Assembly (NCBI GenBank): GCA_026397505.1
Contig: JAPLUR010000020.1
Coordinates: 1 to 64,000 of the forward strand
Direction: 5' to 3'
Source: Candidatus Zixiibacteriota bacterium
GTDB taxonomy: Bacteria > Zixibacteria > MSB-5A5 > GN15 > PGXB01
Length of the DNA: 64,000 nucleotides
A program made the translations under genes and the position numbers. Numbering within the stretch: position 1 is the first letter of the stretch; every line of letters begins with the position of its first letter. Below, in pieces: positions 1 to 14,239 of the stretch. A model generated the notes under the pieces. It was not told the DNA's origin, made no database searches, and saw only the letters and a list, made by a program, of their open reading frames with translations.

Positions 1-58
1 GCTTTATTCAACTATTTCAATCATAAATGGCACAGAAACAATGAAATAATAAAAACCA

Positions 59-1729
59 TCAAAAACATGATACAAAAAGCAGCCTAAATAAATGAAAAAA
101 AGGATATACCAATTTCCACACTAATATTGACATTACCGAATCTCTCCGAATTAAATACGCTTTGTAGGCATCCCTAAGAGAAGCCGATTTGTTGCCGAGT
201 GCATTATACAATCTGGCTCGGCCCAATAAACACGACCCTAACACATATGGATTAGCATAAGAATTATTCTCCAAGATCGCTAAAGCCCTATTAAACATGT
301 TCTCCGCTTCAGCCAATCTATTCTCGGCATAACGAAGCTCCGCTATGCCATAGTAACAAGAAGCCGTATTTAGGCTCTTAGCCCCAAGCGTATCCTGTAG
401 ACCTCCTACTATATCTTGATAAATAGAATCTGCTTCCGCATACTTTGCCTGGTCTTGTTTCAGGCGGGCCAATTTTAGGCAATCAAGTATGTAACTCCTG
501 CCATCTTTCCCAAATGCTCCTTCATCTATCCTTATCATCCTTAAAAGCAATTGCTCTGCATCGCTAAGCTTATCCTGATCACAGTATAAATTAAAAAGGC
601 CGTTAAGATCATTGGCAATTTCCGGATGGTCAGGACCCGCGGAGCTTTCTGTAATTGACAAAGCAAGTCTGTAATACGCTTCCGCTTCTTGAAATCTCCG
701 CTGTCCTCGATACAAGTCTGCCAAATACCGATATATATATGCTGACTGATCAGTGGTTGTTGAACCCAACGTTTTATTTTCTATTTCCAGCGCCCTAAGT
801 AATAGAGATTCTGCTGCAGTATAATTGCCTTGCATTGTATAAAGAGAACCAAGGTTTGCCAGACTTCTCGCAGCCGAGAGACTCATCGGGCCAGAAATTA
901 ATTCACTTATGGCAAGAGATTGTTTTTCATACGAAATTGCATCTAAATATCTTTCTTCGACAAAATAAGCAGCCGCAAGTATGTTGAGCACTATGCTTAC
1001 TAAATATATTTCTTTTCTGTCCAATGAAGCCACTGATTCGGGATTATATCTTATTGCCCCTAATACTTTTTCTACTTGCATCTTGGCCTTTTCATAGAAT
1101 GATTGCCGCAAGTATAATTTACCAAGATAAAGCATAGACCATAAGACTTCCAGATCACTTAATCCCAGTGCCTTTTTTTCTATTTCAATCCCCTTTATAT
1201 ATAGCGATTCGCTTTCAGCATATCGAGTATAAAAACTATAAACGCCTGCCAAGTTGATAAGAGCGCGCCCAACATCAATATGTTCTGGCCCTAGAGTCTT
1301 CTCTCTAATCATTATCGCTCTTTTATAGACCTCTTCAGTTTCTGAAAGACTCCCTATACTCCCAGTATTAATGCCTAATTTCATCAAAATATCGGCGATC
1401 TTTGGGTGATCGGGTCCCAAGGTCTTTTCCCAGATTGCCAATTCCTTTCTGATTAAAGTATCAGCAATCTGACCTGCAGAATTGCCCGCAACTCTCATAA
1501 AGGAAGAAGCAAGACGGTCCATTATGGCCGCCGCGACGGTATCTTCCCGGGAAAGCTCATTGTGCACTTCTTTTATCGCGATTCTGCATAGAGAGAGCGC
1601 TGAATCATATTCATATATGTCGCACAATGAGTCTGCTCTATTCAATAGATCCTGCCAGCTTTCCATTGCACCTGCTCTCAAAGAGAGGAGCAAAACGAAC
1701 CCCAGAATTGAAATAGGCCTTATAGACAC
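59..1729 (-). CDS. Secreted TPR protein, CHAT-less paralogue of the upstream gene
   Basis: The 556-residue product starts with a hydrophobic signal segment (about residues 5-21, ending near 'RAGA'), followed by kinesin-light-chain-type TPRs with 'A..LY.+.I.IEKK.LG' units through most of the chain. The first 35 residues are nearly identical to the neighbouring TPR-CHAT protein. The start codon is GTG, preceded by AGGAGG and a leader shared with the upstream gene (AATGAGATAGGAG...GGTGTCTAT), so the two arose by tandem duplication. Similarity to the paralogue stops near 'AYLIRR', just where the CHAT-bearing half should begin, and the end is an unrelated hydrophobic tail. It may be a truncated copy or a partner or decoy scaffold. 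It probably acts in the envelope; I cannot assign a ligand. Confidence 0.85.
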   Translation of the reverse strand: MSIRPISILGFVLLLSLRAGAMESWQDLLNRADSLCDIYEYDSALSLCRIAIKEVHNELSREDTVAAAIMDRLASSFMRVAGNSAGQIADTLIRKELAIWEKTLGPDHPKIADILMKLGINTGSIGSLSETEEVYKRAIMIREKTLGPEHIDVGRALINLAGVYSFYTRYAESESLYIKGIEIEKKALGLSDLEVLWSMLYLGKLYLRQSFYEKAKMQVEKVLGAIRYNPESVASLDRKEIYLVSIVLNILAAAYFVEERYLDAISYEKQSLAISELISGPMSLSAARSLANLGSLYTMQGNYTAAESLLLRALEIENKTLGSTTTDQSAYIYRYLADLYRGQRRFQEAEAYYRLALSITESSAGPDHPEIANDLNGLFNLYCDQDKLSDAEQLLLRMIRIDEGAFGKDGRSYILDCLKLARLKQDQAKYAEADSIYQDIVGGLQDTLGAKSLNTASCYYGIAELRYAENRLAEAENMFNRALAILENNSYANPYVLGSCLLGRARLYNALGNKSASLRDAYKAYLIRRDSVMSILVWKLVYPFFHLFRLLFVSCF

Positions 1730-1790
1730 CTTCTTCCTCCTATCTCATTAAGAAAATGAACTAAATCTATTCGAGTGCCTATACTTGTCA

Positions 1791-4700
1791 TTATCGCCAA
1801 TCCCCCTGCGCGATAAAGGCAGCCCAGGAATATGGATGATCCGAGAATCCGCCGGCTCGAAGTTTCTTGATTTGCTCGAGTTGTAGTTCACGCAGTCTCT
1901 CGGGGATCGATTTGTCTGACCTCATATATAGCCGACTCATCATCTCAGCAGTAGTTTTGTCGTCAACCTGCCATAGAGAACTGACCACGGTGCGCGCTCC
2001 CGCCATCTGAAAAGCTCGCCGTAGTCCGAATACTCCTTCACCCTGCTTAACCTCACCAAGACCAGTCTCGCATGCGGAAAGAACGACCAGTTGCGTTCCT
2101 TTCAGATCTAGAGAAGATACTTCATAGGCTGACAATATGCCATCGTCTACGCCTAAACTATCCGCGTCATCGCCATGCCGGTTGGCACCCGCCAGAAGAA
2201 GGCCGGATTGCAACAGGGGATTTTCACCCACCCAAGTCTCCTCGTTGCCTGCCCGAGTTGATGGTATTGAAGGTCGACACCGCCCCTCAAGAAAATAACC
2301 GTGAGTGGCCAGGTGAATCACCCTCTTCCCCGACGCCTCCTTCCTGAAATTATCCTCGCTGGCCTGAGAGTCGAAGAACACGGCGGTTGTTTCTGCCCAA
2401 GCAGACCGCCATCTGGACACGATTTGGTTAATCTCGCTTTTTGTTCCTGGTAACGACGCAACATGGAGATTCTTCAAATCCCCGCATCCGGATCGTACAT
2501 TGTGCGTCGCATACTCGGAATAGCCTGCGATACTATCGACTTCTTGCGCGAGCGCCTCTGAGACCCGGTGGATCGACGGAGTTGCGTCGTAATCGGGATC
2601 TCCCAGTGCAAAGAGCCCTGTTGTTACTTGAGCAGGTGCCTCCTGTAGTCTAATTAGGTCCCTGCCTGAAGAAAGGTGATGGATAAGATATTTCTCAACC
2701 AGGTAAATTCCCTTTTCATCCATCAGGCCAGCCAGCGATACAAGGTTTAAAGAGCCATCGAGCCCGACAAATATTGTCTGCTCCTTCTTAAAATGCCTTT
2801 CCAACGGCTTCCAGATCCTTTCATAAAGGGCTTGATTGATCGGTTGATATTCAACCATATCGGATTTGTTTGGCAACTGCCCGGCGGAGGCTTCGCTCTG
2901 CATGTGCTTTAAGTAGCGATCAACCAATGGATCGATATCTGAGGCGTCTCCAAGCTGCACAATCTCCGTCTTTCCGCCCTTGTTAATAATTAGCGCTAGG
3001 TATTTCGGAATAACGGAATCGGGCTTTATTTGGCGATAATCCCATTTAAGATATTCGATAAACGCCGTATTGGCCGGTAATAATGAGTCAATTTTCGCCG
3101 CCGAGATATTATTAATCTCTTGCCTTCTCCGAAAACTCATACTGCGCCGTGATAATTCAGCCTCGAAATCGTTTGCAGCCCTAGAAAGGGAATCAAGTTT
3201 TATTTTGTAGGCGCCCGTGGTATCATCGCCGGGGTCAGCGCTATATAGCTTGGAGATTTGCAATTTTGCAGTTCGAAGTGACTGCGCTAGCATCTGTGTT
3301 ATTGAATCCTTCTCAGTTGCCAACGCTTGCTGTCGCTGCATCACTCCCTCAAAGACTATTCCCTTAGATGAGAGAACAACAGCATTCTCCTCATTCAGCT
3401 GACCATAGTCGGCCTTGCCAAGGTCATAAATACAGGAGAGGTAACTATTGAAGGCTTTTTTAACGGCCTGAGCGTACGTAAGTGCATCCTTTTCAGAAAG
3501 TACACGGGCGTTGTTACGGAAATTCCTGAATCGAATGTTGAAAGCCTTTGCCGCTTCCGCAATTCCCGAATCCAATTGTTGAGTGGCGCGATAATAGGCA
3601 GAGTATGATCCCCGAGTGTCCGCTACGCGTGGATGATCCGGACCAAGAACTTTTTCATCAATTGCCAACACTCTTTTGTAAAGCGGCTCCGCGTCGGCGT
3701 CACGTCCCTGGGCATGATAAACCAGGGCGAGATTGAGCAGGCATCTTGCCACATTCGGGTGCTCTGGACCAAGGACTTTTTCATCAATCGCAAGCGCTCT
3801 TCTGTAAAGCGGCTCCGCGTCGGCATAGCGCCCCTGGTCATAATAATTACATGCAAGATTGTGCAAGCCTAGCGCTACGTCCGGATGGTCCGGACCAAGA
3901 GCTTTTTCTTTAATCGCCAGAGCACGTTTATAAAGCTGATCGGCCTCAGCATATTTTGCCTGGTCACTATAGAGATTAGCAAGATTATTCAAACTTGCCG
4001 ATACATCTGGATTATCCGCACCAAGAGCTTTTTCCCTAATCGCCAGGGCTCTCTTGTATAGCGGCTCAGCGTCGGCGTCACGTCCCTGGTAGCGATAAGC
4101 CACAGCGAGATTGCCCAAAACCGCTGCCACACGTGGATGATCGGAACCAGTCGTCTTTTCAAGAATCGCCAGCGCGCGCTTATAGAGCGGCTCGGCCTCA
4201 GCATATAGTGCCTGGGCAAGATAGACATTTGCAAGATCATTCAGGCCCATCGCTACATCCGGATGATCCGGAGAAAGAGCTTTTTCCTTAATTGCCAGCG
4301 CACGTTTATATAGCTGCTCGGCCTCAGCATTGCGTGCCTGGGCAAGATAGATATCCGCAAGACCTTTCACACTTTGCACTACAGCCAAATTATCCGAGCC
4401 AAGAGCTTTTTCTAGAACCGCCAGTCCTCTTTTGTATAGAGGTTCGGCATTGGCATAGCGTCCTTGGAGATAATAGACAAAGGCGAGATTGTTCACGCAA
4501 AACGCTACATATGGATTATCTATACCAAAAGCACTTTCAAAAATCGCCAGTACTCTCTTGTATAAAGGCTCCGCATCGACATAGCGTCCTTGGCCACAAT
4601 AAACCAAGGCGAGATTGTTCAAACCTTTCGCCACGTCAGGATCATTTGGACCAAGAACCTTCTCCCGAATTGTTATGGCCTGACGCAATAACGTGTCAGC

Positions 4701-4955
4701 TTGACCGTAGGCAGCCTTGTGATAATGGTAGATCCCGAGCAGGAATAATACTCTGGCCGTAGCAGTATCATTTCCGCCAAATTCTTCCCGCGTCTTTTCG
4801 AGTGCAAGCCTACCAATGAAGATGGCTGAGTCTTGATATTGTGCTTTTGATAGCGAATCTGCCCGATTTAACAGATCCTGCCAGCTCTCGGCCGCGCCGA
4901 CTCTCAAGGAGAGGAGCAGAACAAATCCCAAAATCGAAAAAATCCTCATAGACAC
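1791..4955 (-). CDS. TPR-CHAT caspase-like protease, secreted
   Basis: This 1054-residue protein has a signal peptide (about residues 4-21), roughly nine or ten 42-residue TPRs (about 50-470), a helical linker and a C-terminal CHAT (clan CD, caspase/separase-like) domain. The likely catalytic dyad is visible: His885 in 'HLATHG' and Cys962 in 'SACETG', with the conserved 'G.GVFGLRRAF..AGA..VV.SLW.V.D' region following. In this family TPRs sense or hold a partner and the CHAT domain cleaves a substrate. The signal peptide would place it in the periplasm or at the surface. GTG is the better start: AGGAG lies about 8 bases upstream, as in the paralogue. It lies 75 bases downstream of an anti-sigma-like gene, forming a sigma/anti-sigma/protease unit. 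The substrate is unknown. Confidence 0.92.
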   Translation of the reverse strand: MSMRIFSILGFVLLLSLRVGAAESWQDLLNRADSLSKAQYQDSAIFIGRLALEKTREEFGGNDTATARVLFLLGIYHYHKAAYGQADTLLRQAITIREKVLGPNDPDVAKGLNNLALVYCGQGRYVDAEPLYKRVLAIFESAFGIDNPYVAFCVNNLAFVYYLQGRYANAEPLYKRGLAVLEKALGSDNLAVVQSVKGLADIYLAQARNAEAEQLYKRALAIKEKALSPDHPDVAMGLNDLANVYLAQALYAEAEPLYKRALAILEKTTGSDHPRVAAVLGNLAVAYRYQGRDADAEPLYKRALAIREKALGADNPDVSASLNNLANLYSDQAKYAEADQLYKRALAIKEKALGPDHPDVALGLHNLACNYYDQGRYADAEPLYRRALAIDEKVLGPEHPNVARCLLNLALVYHAQGRDADAEPLYKRVLAIDEKVLGPDHPRVADTRGSYSAYYRATQQLDSGIAEAAKAFNIRFRNFRNNARVLSEKDALTYAQAVKKAFNSYLSCIYDLGKADYGQLNEENAVVLSSKGIVFEGVMQRQQALATEKDSITQMLAQSLRTAKLQISKLYSADPGDDTTGAYKIKLDSLSRAANDFEAELSRRSMSFRRRQEINNISAAKIDSLLPANTAFIEYLKWDYRQIKPDSVIPKYLALIINKGGKTEIVQLGDASDIDPLVDRYLKHMQSEASAGQLPNKSDMVEYQPINQALYERIWKPLERHFKKEQTIFVGLDGSLNLVSLAGLMDEKGIYLVEKYLIHHLSSGRDLIRLQEAPAQVTTGLFALGDPDYDATPSIHRVSEALAQEVDSIAGYSEYATHNVRSGCGDLKNLHVASLPGTKSEINQIVSRWRSAWAETTAVFFDSQASEDNFRKEASGKRVIHLATHGYFLEGRCRPSIPSTRAGNEETWVGENPLLQSGLLLAGANRHGDDADSLGVDDGILSAYEVSSLDLKGTQLVVLSACETGLGEVKQGEGVFGLRRAFQMAGARTVVSSLWQVDDKTTAEMMSRLYMRSDKSIPERLRELQLEQIKKLRAGGFSDHPYSWAAFIAQGDWR
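3600..4690 (-). repeat. Nine tandem 126-bp TPR-coding units
   Basis: A segment resembling 'ccaagagctttttc' recurs every 126 bp (near 3649, 3770, 3894, 4020, 4147, 4270, 4398, 4523 and 4650). Each period encodes one 42-residue kinesin-light-chain-type TPR. The DNA similarity of the units points to recent expansion or gene conversion, and the array could change length by recombination. Confidence 0.85.
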
Positions 4956-5030
4956 CTTAATTCTCCTATCTCATTATTGGTTCTGGTGAAAGATATGGAG
5001 TTGATGTTCATTTGTTGGTCACTCAATGAA

Positions 5031-6092
5031 CTAAATCTGAAATGTGAATCCTGGAACGGCCTGATACTGATTTCCATCTCTGTATATGAATACTACCGCT
5101 CCTTCTTTGCCCAATTCCGGCGTCCAGATTGCCCGGACGGTGTCAGAGATGATTTCTGCCCGCATCAATTTGTAATTCGGGCCTCCCGGCAAACCCAATA
5201 ACCACGCAGAAACCCGCCTTCCGGAACTATCTGCTGATTTCGGGATAGATGCTGTGAACTCACCTATGGTTGACATTGTGGAATCCACTAATTGCATCAC
5301 TATAATCGTGACCGAATCCTGCGGTCGAGGTCCCGGCTGGCCGGGATTCTGAACAGTATGGAATAGATAGGTTTCCTCATCGAAAACAAGATATTCTGAT
5401 AGGCTAGCAAGGGCCAGGGAGTCCTCGAATTTTCTATTGATGGATGGTTGTTTGCTATCCATCGCTCGGGTGCGCACCTGGCGCAGCAATCCCGGGTCAA
5501 CATGATTTTCGACGATTTCTATCGAAGCGAGCACAGGTTTGGACCCGGCCATTCCTTCAGTAACCGGTCTTTCGGGTTCGAGTCCTGGGATTAGTCCATA
5601 CATTCTGAAAGCGACGATCATTATGACGAAAGCTCCTGCCACAGCTGCTGCAGGAATCAATTTCGCCGGGGTCATGAAATCCTGAAGCTTTTGCCACCGC
5701 GTGGTGAGCAAGGATGATTTCTTGGCCACATTAAGCGGTCGCTTATATAAGCTATCCTCAATTCCCATTTTTTCCATTCTTCTCAGAAATACCTGTCGGT
5801 CCGGAATTGGAGTCTCAGCATCTGGCAAAGCTGATATGCCTTCAGAAGCGGTCAAGATATTATTGAGATCCTTTATCATGTCCCGCATTTGGTCACGGAA
5901 ATCAGCGGATAATATCATTGCTTTATATATGATCGCTTCCTCTTTTTCGCTGGCCTTTCCAAAAAGATAGGCATTTATAGTTGCGTCATCAGGGCGAATG
6001 AATTTTTCGGTCGAAGAGGCTCGCGCTTGTTTGATCAGCCTATCCAGTTTTATATCCTTTTCCAGGTCCTCATTTTTGCCATTATCGCTCAT
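5031..6092 (-). CDS. Single-pass anti-sigma-like membrane protein
   Basis: Using the internal ATG at 6092 (GGAG five bases upstream) gives 353 residues; an upstream ATG would add five. The cytoplasmic N-terminus contains 'INAYLFGKASEKEEAIIYKAM' (the E/A-rich helix pattern typical of anti-sigma N-domains) but lacks the zinc-binding HxxxCxxC. One TM helix lies at about residues 144-167 and is followed by a periplasmic domain of about 185 residues rich in beta strands. It sits 90 bases downstream of the sigma factor and immediately before the TPR-CHAT gene. I infer that it tethers or inhibits the sigma factor and senses an envelope signal, perhaps through the CHAT protease. The family is not recognised with certainty. 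Confidence 0.7.
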   Translation of the reverse strand: MSDNGKNEDLEKDIKLDRLIKQARASSTEKFIRPDDATINAYLFGKASEKEEAIIYKAMILSADFRDQMRDMIKDLNNILTASEGISALPDAETPIPDRQVFLRRMEKMGIEDSLYKRPLNVAKKSSLLTTRWQKLQDFMTPAKLIPAAAVAGAFVIMIVAFRMYGLIPGLEPERPVTEGMAGSKPVLASIEIVENHVDPGLLRQVRTRAMDSKQPSINRKFEDSLALASLSEYLVFDEETYLFHTVQNPGQPGPRPQDSVTIIVMQLVDSTMSTIGEFTASIPKSADSSGRRVSAWLLGLPGGPNYKLMRAEIISDTVRAIWTPELGKEGAVVFIYRDGNQYQAVPGFTFQI

Positions 6093-6182
6093 AACGTCTC
6101 CGACCATCCAGTTTCACTGAGGTTAGTCAAAATATATAATGCTGATTCCTGTCAATTTCGGGGTGCGCAATCCGAAATTTAA

Positions 6183-6815
6183 TTATGATTCGAATAGTGC
6201 TGCCATATCGATTCCCGACTCAGATAATCTTTTCCTCAGCTGTCGTCGGCATTCTCTCAAATCGTCTGACACTTTCTTATTATAATCTGACGGAAGTTTA
6301 AGAGTATCAACCATTTCCTGGGGGCTATATTCATCGGCGGCCATCTCTAGAAGGAGCCGACATTTTTGGCTCAATTGCTTGATTATTTCATAGACTTTGC
6401 CGGCAACCTGTTTCCACGCCGTCAGGTTGAGCAGATCCTCAGTATTATCTTGAAAAATATGCTCCAGACCTTTGCCGCTCTCATCACTATGGATAGAAAC
6501 GAATTGTGGCTCTCTTTTCTTTGCCCGGGCTAATTCCAGAGTCCTGTTATAGGCCACCAAATAAAGCCATCCGGCAAAAGGCTGGCCCCGGTTAATATAC
6601 TGACGCAAAACATGAAAGTCATTCTTGACACAGTGATAAATTATTTCATTAAGAATTTCGCCTTGATCTTCTCTTGATAGGCAACGCATCGGCCGGGGCG
6701 GCATTGCTCGGATGAATCCAATGGCAAATTGATAGAATTCCTTGAAAGCCTTATCTGGATCCGCATCCAGCAAATCCAAGAATGATGGCCAACTCTGGCT
6801 ATAATCAGCTCTCAT
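6183..6815 (-). CDS. ECF-like sigma-70 family factor
   Basis: The 210-residue product has a region-2-like segment (about residues 55-105, including 'FAGWLYLVAYNRTLELARAKK', the usual region 2.3/2.4 pattern) and a C-terminal region-4-like helix-turn-helix (about 140-200, 'LSQKCRLLLEMAADEYSPQEM'). The linker between them lacks a region 3. It is the first gene of a minus-strand unit with the anti-sigma-like, TPR-CHAT and TPR genes, and is divergent from the metalloprotease gene. Its promoter is probably in 6816-6960, but I see no clear consensus there. It is divergent from classical ECFs, which fits the 'sigma beside TPR' accessory class. Confidence 0.8.
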   Translation of the reverse strand: MRADYSQSWPSFLDLLDADPDKAFKEFYQFAIGFIRAMPPRPMRCLSREDQGEILNEIIYHCVKNDFHVLRQYINRGQPFAGWLYLVAYNRTLELARAKKREPQFVSIHSDESGKGLEHIFQDNTEDLLNLTAWKQVAGKVYEIIKQLSQKCRLLLEMAADEYSPQEMVDTLKLPSDYNKKVSDDLRECRRQLRKRLSESGIDMAALFES

Positions 6816-6960: not shown

Positions 6961-7998
6961 ATGATGGCATTGTTCAAATCGAGTGAAAAAGGATTATTGA
7001 ATCAGTTTATCTCGCTGATTTTGGTTCTGATTCTTGCCGGCTGGTGGGTTTCAACTGGCTGTGAGAAGGTGCCGACCAAGCCCCAAGAAGAGAAGCGCAA
7101 CATTTGCACTCCAAACTACCTTGAACAGGCAATCACATGGGACAGCGGTCTAAAACGATGGATATTCCATACGTGGAAAGGTTCAGGTTCCAATGGAGGT
7201 TGCAAAGTCTATATTAATGTTCATGATGCCGCAGCTCACGTGCCCTCAAATTTCAATGCCTCGGCCGCAAAAGCTGCTGTAATCAACGGCCGTGATATTT
7301 GGCGTGCAGCCATTGAAGCAACTGGGCTGGCCTGGCAATCTATCACGCTTTTTGAATCTGAAGGAGATCTCATGACCTCCACTAAACCTCGAATAGATAT
7401 AACATATCAAGACCAAATGTCTTATGGAGGCACAGCCAGGGTTTCGGAATATAACTCAACGGCAAAGACCTTTGCAAGAATTGATATTGTTATTGCAACA
7501 GGAGCCAAAGATATTAATGGAGTATATCGGACAATGACCCAGGATGATTATATGAATGCCATGGCACATGAATTTGGGCATGCTTTTGGCATTACTTCCT
7601 GGAATAGCCAAGGTGGTCATAGTCTAAACCCTGACGATGTAATGTATTATTCGAACAAGTATTCCACTCTTTCGAATGGTGACATATTGACGATACAGAG
7701 CCTTTATACCGGAGATGCCTATTACAAACCTTGCAATATGCTCAATTATCGCTTTTGGATCCGAGATGCTTCTTCCTATCCATATGGAATTACTTTTAAT
7801 TTTCAGAATGCAAATTACAATATTAACCAAAGTGAGACAAAAGTATTCTCATTGCAAAGCAGTGCCGCTCTTTATTTATGGGAATGCATTGGAACAAATT
7901 GCCGTTGGGACCAATATCAAGTCACTCCAGGGGTACATTACAAAATAATTGACACCCCTGGTGGAAAACAATGGGATATAACTCTCGCCCGAGAATAG
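6961..7998 (+). CDS. Metzincin-like zinc metalloprotease lipoprotein
   Basis: A signal segment (about residues 14-32) ends at lipobox-like 'STGC', so Cys34 is probably lipidated. Zinc site: His203-Glu204-His207 in 'HEFGHAFG'. The usual third ligand three residues after the Gly is absent (Ser there), but a His follows at about 221 and 'DVMYY' resembles the Met-turn of matrixins. A C-terminal domain of about 100 residues follows, with a cysteine pair ('CIGTNC'). The start is supported by AAAGGAG seven bases upstream. It is divergent from the sigma-factor unit, so it could be co-regulated, though this is only positional inference. It likely cleaves extracellular or surface protein. Confidence 0.85.
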   Translation: MMALFKSSEKGLLNQFISLILVLILAGWWVSTGCEKVPTKPQEEKRNICTPNYLEQAITWDSGLKRWIFHTWKGSGSNGGCKVYINVHDAAAHVPSNFNASAAKAAVINGRDIWRAAIEATGLAWQSITLFESEGDLMTSTKPRIDITYQDQMSYGGTARVSEYNSTAKTFARIDIVIATGAKDINGVYRTMTQDDYMNAMAHEFGHAFGITSWNSQGGHSLNPDDVMYYSNKYSTLSNGDILTIQSLYTGDAYYKPCNMLNYRFWIRDASSYPYGITFNFQNANYNINQSETKVFSLQSSAALYLWECIGTNCRWDQYQVTPGVHYKIIDTPGGKQWDITLARE

Positions 7999-9053: not shown

Positions 9054-10196
9054 ATGTATATCAATGACAGTAACTCAGAAGCACATCAAAGGATGTTGCA
9101 AAGATTTCTTGGCTTCGAAATAAAATGGGCGGCTGTACTCATTATGGCTTTCTTCATAGGTCTGTCGCCAGAACCAAGTCCATATGCACAAGAATCGGAT
9201 GTTGAGTATAAAGTAGTTACGATAAAGCCCACAGAAGACCTGATTTTCTCGCCCGCGAATCAGAATAGTAATCAGCCGCCAATTGATGTCGCTTCGAAGG
9301 AGCCGCCCATAGATGAATTTGTGTATAATTTCCTAACCTATGACCCGACGCTGAAACAGCAATATCTCGATGAAATTCATAAACATAACCAACAAGGGTT
9401 GGCCAAGGCCTTGAATGATCGTCTCAAGATAGCTTGGGAAGCCTACAGTTTCACTTGTAATAACTGCGCCGAAGGCGATGATGGATGTCCCCAGCGTGCT
9501 GCTGATAGATATAACATGGAGAGGAGAACTTGGCAGTTTGATTTTGAGCAACTCAAAGCTGATGATGAAATTAAATATCGTGTGGCCTGTTCAAAAGCTA
9601 GAGTAGAAGAAGATCAATATCAAAAGAATCTGGAAGAAGAGAAAAAACAAAGGGATGATGAGAAAAAGAAAATTGATAAAAAGATAGCCGACAATGCAAA
9701 AATACTGAGGGATGAAGAGCGGCAATTGCATGAGAAGCAGGTAGATTATTATCGCAGCAGACTTCAAGACCCGGGGCAAAATAATAATGACAATAGTGTA
9801 CTCAAACAGATTGAGGATTTTGCAGCTATTTCCAAAGATAACTCTGGTCAGATGGTCATCCCTCCTGAGCAATTCTATCCGTCGCGTAGAAAATGGGAAT
9901 CTCACGAGACCCTGGAAAATAGAAGCAGGGAGTATTCTCGCATATCAGCCGTGGTAAACAATGATACAATGACCAATTCTGGCAATATCTTTAATGACCG
10001 GATGAATAGAAATTACCAGTATAAGACTGTCCTGTCCTTTGATGATTCCCTTGCCTGGCTACAGCACAATATAGAGCTGCTTGAAGAACTTTGCCAGCCA
10101 AGTGGTAATGATTCCCTCATAATAATGAAATTGGAGAATATGCGACAGGCAAGAGAATTATTGCTGTCTCAAGGAAAAGATGGCCGTGATAAGTAA
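9054..10196 (+). CDS. Exported coiled-coil protein with IPP..F...R..W motif
   Basis: The 380-residue product is preceded by AGGAGG. A hydrophobic segment (about residues 27-43, then 'YAQ') should act as a signal peptide or anchor. Residues about 180-240 are strongly charged (E/K/D/Q-rich) and predicted coiled coil. Near residue 267 it carries IPP-x2-F-x3-R-x2-W, exactly shared with the 268-residue protein two genes downstream, which also follows a coiled coil. Four cysteines lie at about 135-150. I recognise no family. The shared architecture suggests that the two proteins are homologous or bind the same partner, perhaps the CsgG-like protein encoded between them. Confidence 0.75.
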   Translation: MYINDSNSEAHQRMLQRFLGFEIKWAAVLIMAFFIGLSPEPSPYAQESDVEYKVVTIKPTEDLIFSPANQNSNQPPIDVASKEPPIDEFVYNFLTYDPTLKQQYLDEIHKHNQQGLAKALNDRLKIAWEAYSFTCNNCAEGDDGCPQRAADRYNMERRTWQFDFEQLKADDEIKYRVACSKARVEEDQYQKNLEEEKKQRDDEKKKIDKKIADNAKILRDEERQLHEKQVDYYRSRLQDPGQNNNDNSVLKQIEDFAAISKDNSGQMVIPPEQFYPSRRKWESHETLENRSREYSRISAVVNNDTMTNSGNIFNDRMNRNYQYKTVLSFDDSLAWLQHNIELLEELCQPSGNDSLIIMKLENMRQARELLLSQGKDGRDK

Positions 10197-10240
10197 TATT
10201 AAAAAATAATTGTGAATCAATAACAAGAAAGGAAAACGTC

Positions 10241-11560
10241 ATGAAACCGATTGCTTTCTGCAGACTAAGGAACACAAAGATACTCGCTCTGGTATTCTTT
10301 ATTATTACCGCAGCGATATTCGTAATCATTCCCTTTAAGGGATATTGCGACATCAACGATCTTGAAGAAAATTTCCTCAGTAGATTTGGTAAGGACGTTA
10401 TTCAGAAAATCAGAGGAAATGCAATTGTTGTCAACGGTCGGACTTACTTCTATGATGACAATACCAAAGTGGAAAAAGAAGGATACAATTTCACCGTTCA
10501 GGACCTTCAATTAGGATGGAAAGTGCGTCTCAAAAATAGTGGGGATAGACTGAAAAAGATTGAGGTATTGGGTATTCCTACCGTGATTGCCTTTCCCAAG
10601 TACGACGGATTGAAGGTTAGAGTTGCTGTCGGGAGATTGAGAATGGGTGATCTTCCTGCCGGAAAAATCCAATCAAGTGTTGATTTTCAAAGTGGGGCTG
10701 AATCAATACTCCTGGCAGCCCTGCGGGCCACTAATCGATACGAGGTCGTAGATATTCGCTCTAGGGATGAGATTCTTAATGAGGTCGATTATCAGCAGTC
10801 CATATATAGCAATTCAGAATTGGCAAGCCAGGTAGGCCGCCAAATACCGGCTGAATATATCGTTAAGGGACATATTCTCAGTTTCGGGCAAAAAAGCTCT
10901 AAAGGCAGCGGGTTTGGAGCCTTAGGTGTAAAGATAGGATCAAAGAAAAGCGAGATCACATTGCGGATGGAGCTGACACTTGAGGAAATATCTACCGGAA
11001 CAATTACCAAATCCTATACACACAGCATTGCTTTTTGCTCCAAAGGCTCAGCCTTTTCCCTCAACCCCGCCGGTCTGGTTTCGAGTCTCTCATCATTTAC
11101 AACTGATCTGCAAGCCCTAAATGCCCTGAATGGGATTGCCAGCTCCGGAGCCCAATTCAATAACAGCTCTTATTATGAAAATCCATTGGCTGAAGTGCTC
11201 GGCATCGTTATTAACAAATTGGTATCGAAGATGGTCGCTGATAATGAAAATGTGCCTTGGAGCAGCGTCGTCATAACCGTAGTTGATGAAAAAGTAATTG
11301 TCCGCGGTGGCAAAGATGTCGGATTGCATGTCGGCGATAGATTGGAGCTCCAAAAATCCTCTGATGACCTGATTGACCCAGAAACAGGTGCCTCGCTCGG
11401 CAGCATAAATGCTTCGAGAGGGATACTTACAGTTATTGATGTCCGAGATAGAGTGTCCATATGCTCATTCAATGGAGAACACTCGCCTTCCAGGGGCGAT
11501 AAGTGCTTACTAAGAAGAACGCCAATTCGCGATGATAATGTATATGGAGGTGGCCAATGA
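10241..11560 (+). CDS. CsgG-like envelope protein with FlgT-C-like domain
   Basis: The 439-residue product has a signal peptide (about residues 13-36), a small N-domain (about 40-110), a CsgG/LpoB-type domain (about 125-230, with 'AESILLAALRATNRYEVVDI..RDEILNE' and 'AEYIVKGHI') and a C-terminal FlgT-like domain (about 340-430, 'VIVRGGKDVGLHVGDRLEL'). CsgG forms outer-membrane secretion pores, whereas related proteins act in flagellar or peptidoglycan assembly, so pore formation is inference. No canonical lipobox is seen ('KGYC' at the signal end). The stop overlaps the next start by four bases, indicating coupled translation. Confidence 0.8.
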   Translation: MKPIAFCRLRNTKILALVFFIITAAIFVIIPFKGYCDINDLEENFLSRFGKDVIQKIRGNAIVVNGRTYFYDDNTKVEKEGYNFTVQDLQLGWKVRLKNSGDRLKKIEVLGIPTVIAFPKYDGLKVRVAVGRLRMGDLPAGKIQSSVDFQSGAESILLAALRATNRYEVVDIRSRDEILNEVDYQQSIYSNSELASQVGRQIPAEYIVKGHILSFGQKSSKGSGFGALGVKIGSKKSEITLRMELTLEEISTGTITKSYTHSIAFCSKGSAFSLNPAGLVSSLSSFTTDLQALNALNGIASSGAQFNNSSYYENPLAEVLGIVINKLVSKMVADNENVPWSSVVITVVDEKVIVRGGKDVGLHVGDRLELQKSSDDLIDPETGASLGSINASRGILTVIDVRDRVSICSFNGEHSPSRGDKCLLRRTPIRDDNVYGGGQ

Positions 11561-12363
11561 ATGCAAAATATGACAGATTGGGATTGCTCCTGCTGATTGC
11601 CATGCTTTCAATGATATTCTGGGAGACATCGGTCGGACAAAATGAAATAAGAGATATTGAAGTCATCTGCCAACAGGAAAAAATCAAAATTGAATCGAAG
11701 TATAATAACGAAATGAAACAAATTGAGGATTCAATAAAAAAATATAGTGTCACAAATCCCAAAGAAGACCCGCATTTGGTAGATGAAACACAAGATTGGA
11801 TAATAGACAATAAATCGGACTGGGATCGCTTACGAGATGAAGCCAATGAAAGAGATAATCCTTACATCGAGATTGCCCGATTGAAACGCCTTGAAATAGA
11901 AAGAGATTACAAACAAGCACTTGCCGATCTGGAGATTCAATGTAAGCAAAGAATTGCGGTTCAGAAGGATGAAAGTGAAAAAGTGGAGAAGAAAAAGCAG
12001 GCTGATGAGGCGCATCGTTTGGAAATGGAGAGAGTCCAGAGCGTATTGGATGACCAAAAATGCCAGACAGAGGCAATTAAGGGGCAGGTAGAATTGGAAA
12101 GGCAAAGGATCGAAATACAGCAAAGCCTGGAACAGCGCATCCAATCAAGCTCTCAAGCCATGGATGAATTTATGCAAAATCTGCCATCCAAGATTGGTTC
12201 GGGCAATTCGATTATCATTCCCCCGGGACGATTTGATGCCCAGCGACATCGATGGGATAATGTCAATGTAAAGAAGCTCTTCTTACCCAACAACCCGTCA
12301 CCTAAGACTGCCAATGTGATCAGAAAGCCGGGAGACACGACTGAATCAGAGAAAGGGGAATAG
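11557..12363 (+). CDS. Exported coiled-coil protein, second IPP..F...R..W member
   Basis: The 268-residue product has a signal peptide (about residues 9-28, 'SVGQ'), then an almost continuous charged coiled coil (about 30-205) and a short C-terminal segment with IPP-x2-F-x3-R-x2-W (about residue 220), as in the 380-residue gene upstream. It overlaps the CsgG-like gene by ATGA and ends one base before the next gene, so these are cotranscribed and probably stoichiometric. The family is not recognised. The shape recalls periplasmic chaperones or adaptors, but no Skp/OmpH signature is evident. Confidence 0.75.
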   Translation: MNAKYDRLGLLLLIAMLSMIFWETSVGQNEIRDIEVICQQEKIKIESKYNNEMKQIEDSIKKYSVTNPKEDPHLVDETQDWIIDNKSDWDRLRDEANERDNPYIEIARLKRLEIERDYKQALADLEIQCKQRIAVQKDESEKVEKKKQADEAHRLEMERVQSVLDDQKCQTEAIKGQVELERQRIEIQQSLEQRIQSSSQAMDEFMQNLPSKIGSGNSIIIPPGRFDAQRHRWDNVNVKKLFLPNNPSPKTANVIRKPGDTTESEKGE

Positions 12364-12364
12364 T

Positions 12365-14239
12365 ATGTTGACATATAAGATTATTAAGAATTGCGTTATT
12401 ATACTGGTTGGCCTAATAATGGCATCCCCATTTCCCATAAACAGGAGCAACCTAGCTTATGCCGCCAAAATACCTAACCCAAATTGGAAATGTCCTAATG
12501 GCAGGTCTTTTAACGAGTGCGGGCATATTGCATGTGGCGAAAAATGGTTATGCACTTCCGATGACAATAACCAGAGCACACAATCAAATCAGCCTGGGAA
12601 TGGACTGAATGATCTCCCCAAACCCGGAACACCTGAAATAACGGGACATAATAATGGTAATTTAGCAAGCTCCGACATCCCGGAATCAGATGAAGCAACT
12701 AACTGCAAGAGTGATTTATCATTTCTTGATGATTATAGTGCTAATCAAACACCCGTTAATGCTAAATTTCCTAATAATGAATCATCAGCCAAAGAAAATG
12801 CGTCGACATCACAATCTTCAGCTGACATTTGGAATAATTCCCCGAGCATTTATCAAAATCTAAATCTACAGCCAGTGAATCAGACAGAATGGATGCTTCC
12901 AACAGACGAAGGCGCCTTCAAAGCGACGCTGCCGGATCCCATTTGGGGTGATCAAAGTAATATTTCTAATCCCCCAATTTCACTTCTGAATACTGGTCCT
13001 GAACTATCATCTCTATTGGACGATCCTGCGCAGTCAGCAAATAATGGGCAAAAGGAGAGAAGCCAGCAATTCAAAACTGATAATGCTCAAAGTGCGGAAT
13101 CGCAATTATCCAATGATAAATATATACCATTTGAGAATCAACAAAATGTGGATTGGTTTGAATCGGGTGCACAAAGTAAATTAAAGACCACAATGGATGA
13201 GCCTTCATATGCTGATGATAGATCAGAATTACCGGCAAATAAGCCAGATGAAGTGAATCCGATAGTTAGAAATGAAATCGCGAAAATATTGGAAAATAAA
13301 ACATCATTGCCAGCACAAATAGAAATTACTGAAAGTGATGGCGTTATAGATTTGCGAATTAAAAATGGTAACGATGAAGGACCAATATATGATCATTATG
13401 ATATCCCTCGGGAGCAGTTTGCAGATATGTTGAATAAACAATTAAATGATAATGAAACCGGTAAATCAAATTTTGTAGTCGATCCTTCATCGGGGTCCAT
13501 AATCTCTTCATATGATAATCCGGAGCGTGAGATATTCCCCCTGGACGCAAATCAAATTAAGAGTGTGGACGGCGGGCTTCTTAATAGGATTATCGATAAT
13601 TCCTTGGCAGAATGTGCGGCCCAGTCGATGAAATATGAAGATCTTCTGGTGTGTGGTTCAAGTATTGATAATGAAACGGCAGAGCAATTTGCAATGGATA
13701 TGGCGTATAAGGCAGCGAATGGGGCGGTAGGGAGAGCTGCTGTTGAAGTAGCATTGTCCATCGGAGTTAGCAAGATAGGCTGTGCCCCAATCGCTGTCAT
13801 GATGGACTTATGGCATGCAGGAAAAGCTGCAGAAGCATTAGAAGTCTATGAAAAAGGGTTTGTTGAAGATGGAGGACTAAGGCTGTTAGAGATGAGCTTT
13901 GGCAATAAAGAGGGATTTAGGAGTTGGTTGGAAAACTCCCACGAAGGCAGTCAATATGTCGAGAAGATCAGTGGTCAGGACTTCCCCCCGCCTCTGATTG
14001 ATGGATGGGACGCGGATATTACTCATAGATATCCTCCGACTTCAAGAAATTACTATACGCCGGACTTAATGAAAGAGTGGAATGAAGCTGTGGACAAAGC
14101 TGCTGACGGTCTTTGGAATTATATTGTTAATCGGATTAACTACCAAAAATGGAGTTGGAAATATGATAGATTGAATGAGTTGAAGGAAGAACTCAATTCA
14201 CCCAGTATTCAATACGACTTGATACAGATGGGGAGGTGA
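12365..14239 (+). CDS. Large secreted protein of unknown function
   Basis: The 624-residue product has a signal segment (about residues 8-35, ending 'AYAAK'). A cysteine cluster at about 43-63 resembles a small disulfide or zinc knuckle. About 300 residues of Asn/Ser/Gln-rich low complexity follow, then a denser C-terminal part (about 300-624) with an Ala-rich helical segment (about 440-490) and a Trp/Tyr-rich tail. It is the last gene of the CsgG-like unit and, from its composition, the likeliest exported substrate. The layout (signal, linker, compact C-terminus) is compatible with an effector, but no toxin motif is visible. AGGGG lies before the start. Confidence 0.75.
   Translation: MLTYKIIKNCVIILVGLIMASPFPINRSNLAYAAKIPNPNWKCPNGRSFNECGHIACGEKWLCTSDDNNQSTQSNQPGNGLNDLPKPGTPEITGHNNGNLASSDIPESDEATNCKSDLSFLDDYSANQTPVNAKFPNNESSAKENASTSQSSADIWNNSPSIYQNLNLQPVNQTEWMLPTDEGAFKATLPDPIWGDQSNISNPPISLLNTGPELSSLLDDPAQSANNGQKERSQQFKTDNAQSAESQLSNDKYIPFENQQNVDWFESGAQSKLKTTMDEPSYADDRSELPANKPDEVNPIVRNEIAKILENKTSLPAQIEITESDGVIDLRIKNGNDEGPIYDHYDIPREQFADMLNKQLNDNETGKSNFVVDPSSGSIISSYDNPEREIFPLDANQIKSVDGGLLNRIIDNSLAECAAQSMKYEDLLVCGSSIDNETAEQFAMDMAYKAANGAVGRAAVEVALSIGVSKIGCAPIAVMMDLWHAGKAAEALEVYEKGFVEDGGLRLLEMSFGNKEGFRSWLENSHEGSQYVEKISGQDFPPPLIDGWDADITHRYPPTSRNYYTPDLMKEWNEAVDKAADGLWNYIVNRINYQKWSWKYDRLNELKEELNSPSIQYDLIQMGR

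Follow-up and report, generated by a model that had tools for sequence, protein, structure and literature searches.

What role does a protease play beside a sigma factor and its inhibitor? This question is raised by the first genes of the window (the whole stretch of 64,000 nucleotides that was analysed, with position 1 being base 1 of contig C20 in a host genome of 3.4 Mb and 147 contigs). CHAT proteases are known mainly from the CRISPR Craspase and from eukaryotic separase. Here, a secreted TPR-CHAT protein follows a sigma factor and an anti-sigma-like protein, an arrangement that the first-pass annotation had taken for a possible protease-controlled transcription switch.

Genes of the locus

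Four open reading frames, all on the minus strand and separated by gaps of 75, 75 and 61 nt, were confirmed at the coordinates listed here along with their features.

6183..6815, minus strand: ECF-type sigma-70 factor, 210 aa (TIGR02937 match)
5031..6107, minus strand: anti-sigma-like protein, 358 aa (iterative HMM with relatives)
5607..5663, minus strand: single transmembrane (TM) helix of the anti-sigma-like protein, residues 149-167 (hydropathy; helix 147-170 in the AlphaFold model)
5466..5468, minus strand: Arg214 of the anti-sigma-like protein (QVRT-R-AMD), candidate recognition or cleavage site (column kept in 4/4 of its own subfamily)
1791..4955, minus strand: secreted TPR-CHAT cysteine protease, 1054 aa (PF12770 at 3e-66, TPRs, structure model)
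4893..4955, minus strand: signal peptide of the TPR-CHAT protein, residues about 1-21 (sequence; hydropathy)
1800..2840, minus strand: CHAT domain, residues 706-1052
2301..2303, minus strand: catalytic His885 of CHAT (kept in 65/65 linked CHATs)
2070..2072, minus strand: catalytic Cys962 of CHAT (kept in 65/65 linked CHATs)
59..1729, minus strand: TPR protein with a signal peptide and without a CHAT half, relic (tandem copy; 3' end in the insertion element)
1..137, no strand: insertion-element end lying at the edge of the contig, a repeat with 25 matches in the host genome

The product of the sigma gene matched TIGR02937 (sigma70-ECF) at 3.6e-5, below the curated cut-off, and had no match in the Pfam search. 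The same model was matched by all 22 module sigmas tested, and the window protein was found to be 42-44% identical to the module sigmas of Krumholzibacteria (L123) and of G085 (L089). Judged by these matches, it is a diverged ECF sigma factor. A scan with a generic sigma-70 pattern for a sigma-dependent promoter gave 25 matches versus 16 expected and no usable motif; the sigmas are strongly diverged.

The second protein is laid out as a helical cytoplasmic N-terminus, one TM helix and a beta-rich outer domain (AlphaFold model of low confidence), with the helix lying between the two domains as in membrane-spanning anti-sigma factors. Database profile searches returned no family match of its own, and a fold search with the same poor model gave no structural match at E<0.001. 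Its N-terminus lacks the zinc motif (HxxxCxxC), while class I (zf-HC2-type) features are seen in its relatives. The iterative HMM joins it to a family in which 12 of 22 members match NF052375 'anti-sigma factor' and 11 of 22 match zf-HC2, and it is through these relatives alone that we identify it as a putative anti-sigma factor.

The third protein has a CHAT domain (PF12770, E 3e-66) behind nine TPR_12 stretches, which make up a long TPR array like that of kinesin light chain. Its His/Cys dyad is intact, and its N-terminus is a Sec-type, signal-peptide-like sequence, MSMRIFSILGFVLLLSLRVGAA; nearly all relatives of the secreted class carry a signal peptide as well. The structure model (pLDDT 82) ranked DdvA first in Foldseek, followed by separase and Csx29. 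The dyad that the first-pass annotation had assigned to this protein was confirmed, and the export signal agrees with the secretion proposed there. The sigma, one-TM anti-sigma-like and TPR-CHAT genes themselves were confirmed by their reading frames, profile matches and hydropathy.

The fourth gene had been counted as a TPR paralogue belonging to the module, and here we came to a different conclusion. The upstream leader, start and signal peptide of 59-1729 and of the CHAT gene are alike, with 79% DNA identity over 122 nt, so that one must be a tandem copy of the other. The last ~26 codons of 59-1729 fall within a repeat (window 1-137) that occurs in 25 places of the host genome, mostly at contig ends, and therefore represents an insertion element at this edge of the contig. 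By this comparison, 59-1729 is a truncated tandem copy, cut by the insertion element and left with no CHAT half, and a relic rather than a working part of the module. Intact tandem pairs or triplets of CHAT genes are present in relatives (L068, L069, L123).

Further CHAT sequences were seen in the host genome. A CHAT half at G000:C94:1-1613 (L008) shares 75% DNA identity with the window CHAT and is preceded by a transposase-like tail; we considered it as the missing half of 59-1729 and did not adopt this, since the repeat at its left end is a different one (5 copies). On the same contig as the window, a TPR-CHAT gene at G000:C20:69346-72268 (L010:9347-12269) is interrupted, by a frameshift or a deletion inside it, between a TPR part (693 aa) and a CHAT part (299 aa), and is either a pseudogene or an assembly error.

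Recurrence in related genomes

CHAT genes were carried by 70 of 99 related genomes, from which 80 surrounding loci were taken; reading frames were called by a simple rule, and HMMs were grown from the window sigma and anti-sigma proteins. For the 65 CHATs of the host's class (kin of Zixibacteria) that were flanked on either side by two genes or more, a sigma gene stood no more than four genes away in 47, compared to about 5% expected from the density of such sigmas in these genomes (about 14 per 3.1 Mb). Even at a 10% expectation the binomial probability is below 1e-32, a value that treats related loci as independent and is thus not an exact p; we read it as a strong enrichment. A sigma/anti-sigma pair was found beside 44 of the 65, and in 43 of these 44 the anti-sigma gene was nearer to CHAT than the sigma gene was. 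The neighbourhood survey that had been suggested for TPR-CHAT genes therefore returned a strong and recurrent co-occurrence.

The CHAT gene lies on the opposite strand in 19 of 65 linked cases, mostly tail to tail with the pair, and is co-directional in the other 46. Since the linkage persists across strands, it is not a mere matter of operon sharing. The module was also seen in Krumholzibacteriia, Ignavibacteriae and Acidobacteriota in the named survey, and in at least four phyla in all. With HMMs grown from the host's group, the neighbourhoods of cyanobacterial, magnetococcal, nitrospiral and gammaproteobacterial CHATs gave no sign of it. Within the host's class, roughly a quarter to a third of the CHATs lack a sigma/anti-sigma neighbour, as do most of those from other phyla. 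Taken together, the module is real and recurrent, and its genes are probably functionally coupled.

Upstream of the sigma gene, and divergent from it across a 145-base intergenic region, a matrixin-like metalloprotease with a lipoprotein-like N-terminus is encoded at 6961-7998. We rejected it as a part of the module, as none of the other module loci contains a relative. Further on, window 9054-14239 holds an envelope-type gene run in which a CsgG-like protein (10241-11560) adjoins proteins with no clear family match.

Topology, co-variation and a conserved arginine

The linked loci fall into two classes. In class A, an exported CHAT is accompanied by a one-TM anti-sigma protein, on the same or the opposite strand. 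In class B, the CHAT is cytosolic (about 920 aa) and accompanied by a sigma factor and an anti-sigma-like protein that is soluble (about 196 aa), and nearly all loci have a secreted S8 subtilase directly downstream, some with a dockerin-like domain. This four-gene operon, with a soluble anti-sigma protein that carries PxGVR, was seen in about 20 host-class loci (G000:C1 (L011), L102-L121).

The topology agreed in nearly all 65 triples: membrane anti-sigma proteins go with exported CHATs and soluble ones with cytosolic CHATs. The few mismatches look like cases of threshold, assignment or start site. On the CHAT tree, however, the switch between exported and cytosolic forms is a single event; we therefore dropped the idea of counting the agreement as many independent observations and gave it the weight of one.

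When distance matrices were compared across 45 class A modules, the sigma distances tracked the cytoplasmic domain of the anti-sigma protein (rho 0.56). The CHAT distances, on the other hand, correlated with the outer domain (rho 0.25, p 0.002) rather than with the cytoplasmic one (0.07, p 0.20). The TPR part behaved likewise (0.25 with the outer domain; 0.05, not significant, with the cytoplasmic domain). With sigma partialled out, the value for CHAT and the outer domain was 0.13 (p 0.03) versus -0.11 for CHAT and the cytoplasmic domain. This co-variation, a weak and alignment-dependent effect, is what one would expect if the outer domain has an exported partner.

We also observed a near-invariant Arg near the beginning of the C-terminal beta domain of the anti-sigma proteins, just past the TM helix in most class A members. 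Its context is IxLxP(S/T)R(S/A) in the short class A proteins, FxLxPxxRG in Acidobacteriota, TR(G/A/T) in the subfamily of the window protein and PxGVR in the soluble class. Within each group the Arg is among the more conserved columns, though not the top one, at a between-group identity of about 15%. Arg214 of the window protein is the counterpart of this residue and a candidate for recognition or cleavage, with a role in structure or docking just as possible. Clan CD proteases, separase for example, often cut after Arg.

The motif is not unique to CHAT partners. It is also present in anti-sigma proteins with no adjacent CHAT (L214, L215, L216, L218, L242), and the commonest anti-sigma family away from CHAT (about 760 aa), which has a different outer domain, has a conserved Arg of its own (ENRLAV). 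The motif thus stays a lead.

Proposed regulated proteolysis and the alternatives

We lean, with moderate confidence, towards a reading in which the exported CHAT works as a site-1 protease dedicated to its anti-sigma protein, and the sigma factor is freed by regulated proteolysis; this draws on the sequence comparisons above and on analogy with known systems. The cytoplasmic domain of the anti-sigma protein would hold the ECF sigma at the inner membrane, while the exported TPR-CHAT protein would meet the outer domain. Upon a signal sensed by the TPR array, CHAT would cut the outer domain (site-1), perhaps at the conserved Arg that lies not far from its start or in the vicinity of this residue, and intramembrane and cytosolic proteases would then finish the anti-sigma protein and release the sigma factor to its putative regulon. 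The host genome has members of the M50 site-2-protease family (PF02163, best 2.7e-68); as this family is near-universal, their presence is weak evidence for the second step.

The proposal resembles proteolysis of the RseA/DegS and RsiW type, where an ECF sigma is released once its membrane anti-sigma factor has been cut first outside and then within the membrane. There the protease is a shared serine protease, whereas in the module each anti-sigma gene would have a protease gene of its own next to it, for an exported cysteine protease of clan CD. Separase, in which a CHAT-like protease of caspase fold sits on a helical scaffold, is a strong fold match to the window CHAT; unlike the module, it acts in eukaryotic cohesin cleavage and involves no sigma factor.

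Two bacterial systems come closer. In Craspase (type III-E CASP), the TPR-CHAT protease Csx29 cleaves the sigma inhibitor Csx30 and so relieves the ECF sigma CASP-sigma (PMC10028731). That system is cytosolic and activated by CRISPR RNA via Cas7-11, whereas the window CHAT is exported and its anti-sigma partner spans the membrane. The window CHAT scored 22 bits against the Csx29 model NF041237 (cut-off 300), placing it outside type III-E, and no CRISPR effector was seen among the recurring neighbours of the module. In Myxococcus xanthus, inactivation of DdvA leaves the ECF sigma DdvS active (PMC4374960). DdvA, a transmembrane anti-sigma factor deposited as a CHAT domain-containing protein (PDB 8rot, 8rw5), combines anti-sigma and TPR-CHAT parts in one polypeptide, whereas the window has two proteins and a CHAT with its own signal peptide. 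Such fusions were absent from the surveyed set, in which no CHAT protein matched the anti-sigma HMM.

With its separate genes, exported CHAT and lack of CRISPR, the module resembles DdvA and Craspase and belongs to neither. In the open-access literature, to which our search was confined, we came across no account of a sigma/anti-sigma/TPR-CHAT module that stands on its own. Of the switch originally proposed, the recurrent linkage, the export and the DdvA and Craspase precedents stand in its favour, the fourth gene drops out as a relic, and the cleavage of the anti-sigma protein is a step that we infer.

The CHAT protein could instead be an output, with the sigma factor switching on its own operon and the secreted protease acting on other envelope or foreign proteins. 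Neighbouring genes are often under ECF sigma control, the co-directional majority of CHATs would suit such an arrangement, and many CHATs elsewhere stand alone. We nevertheless regard this as unlikely: the position of the anti-sigma gene between sigma and CHAT, linkage on opposite strands, co-variation with the outer rather than the cytoplasmic domain and the fusion of both parts in DdvA speak against it.

Less probable still, CHAT could act without cutting, as a sensor or co-inhibitor: like a DdvA split in two, it would bind the outer domain with its TPR superhelix and hold or stabilise it, while the protease activity serves elsewhere. The fused architecture of DdvA in the PDB, the suitability of a long TPR array for peptide binding and the co-variation of the TPR part with the outer domain all speak for it. 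Conversely, His and Cys are invariant in 65 of 65 highly diverged linked proteins (and kept in nearly all unlinked CHATs), which points to selection on catalysis. We consider it very improbable that the module serves in defence or cell death, with CHAT as the killing effector and sigma merely its regulator: TPR-CHAT proteins such as Csx29 are known in immune systems and DdvS, an ECF sigma of Myxococcus, controls an antiphage island (PMC12288465), but the CHAT is exported, PADLOC gave weak TPR/CHAT-level matches only and none for sigma or anti-sigma, and no toxin or defence gene was seen recurring beside module CHATs.

Under the site-1 protease reading, the recurrent gene set ties many exported bacterial TPR-CHATs to a candidate substrate, the neighbouring anti-sigma protein. 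If true, the proteases that make the site-1 cut in envelope signalling would come to include caspase-fold cysteine proteases, and there would be a plausible non-CRISPR background to DdvA and to the Csx29/Csx30/CASP-sigma arrangement. A bolder version, which we hold to be rather doubtful, is that of a widespread and undescribed family with one protease per anti-sigma protein, a CHAT on either side of the inner membrane and a cut at the conserved Arg motif, from which the fused DdvA and the RNA-triggered Craspase would be derived as later forms of an older design.

Sigma/anti-sigma pairs apart from CHAT genes showed two patterns. Pairs that carry the Arg motif and adjoin no CHAT were seen at G000:C102:634-1883 (L215), L214 and L216, and genomes G006 and G013 have such orphan pairs plus orphan CHATs (L050, L071), perhaps compatible with split modules. 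Among the sampled sigma loci with no CHAT (L219-L250), the commonest ECF partner was an anti-sigma protein fused to an outer region of ~650 aa that starts with ENRLAVMYFENL; by eye, this region is FlgO/TolB-like, and the proteins make up a large family of fused sensors.
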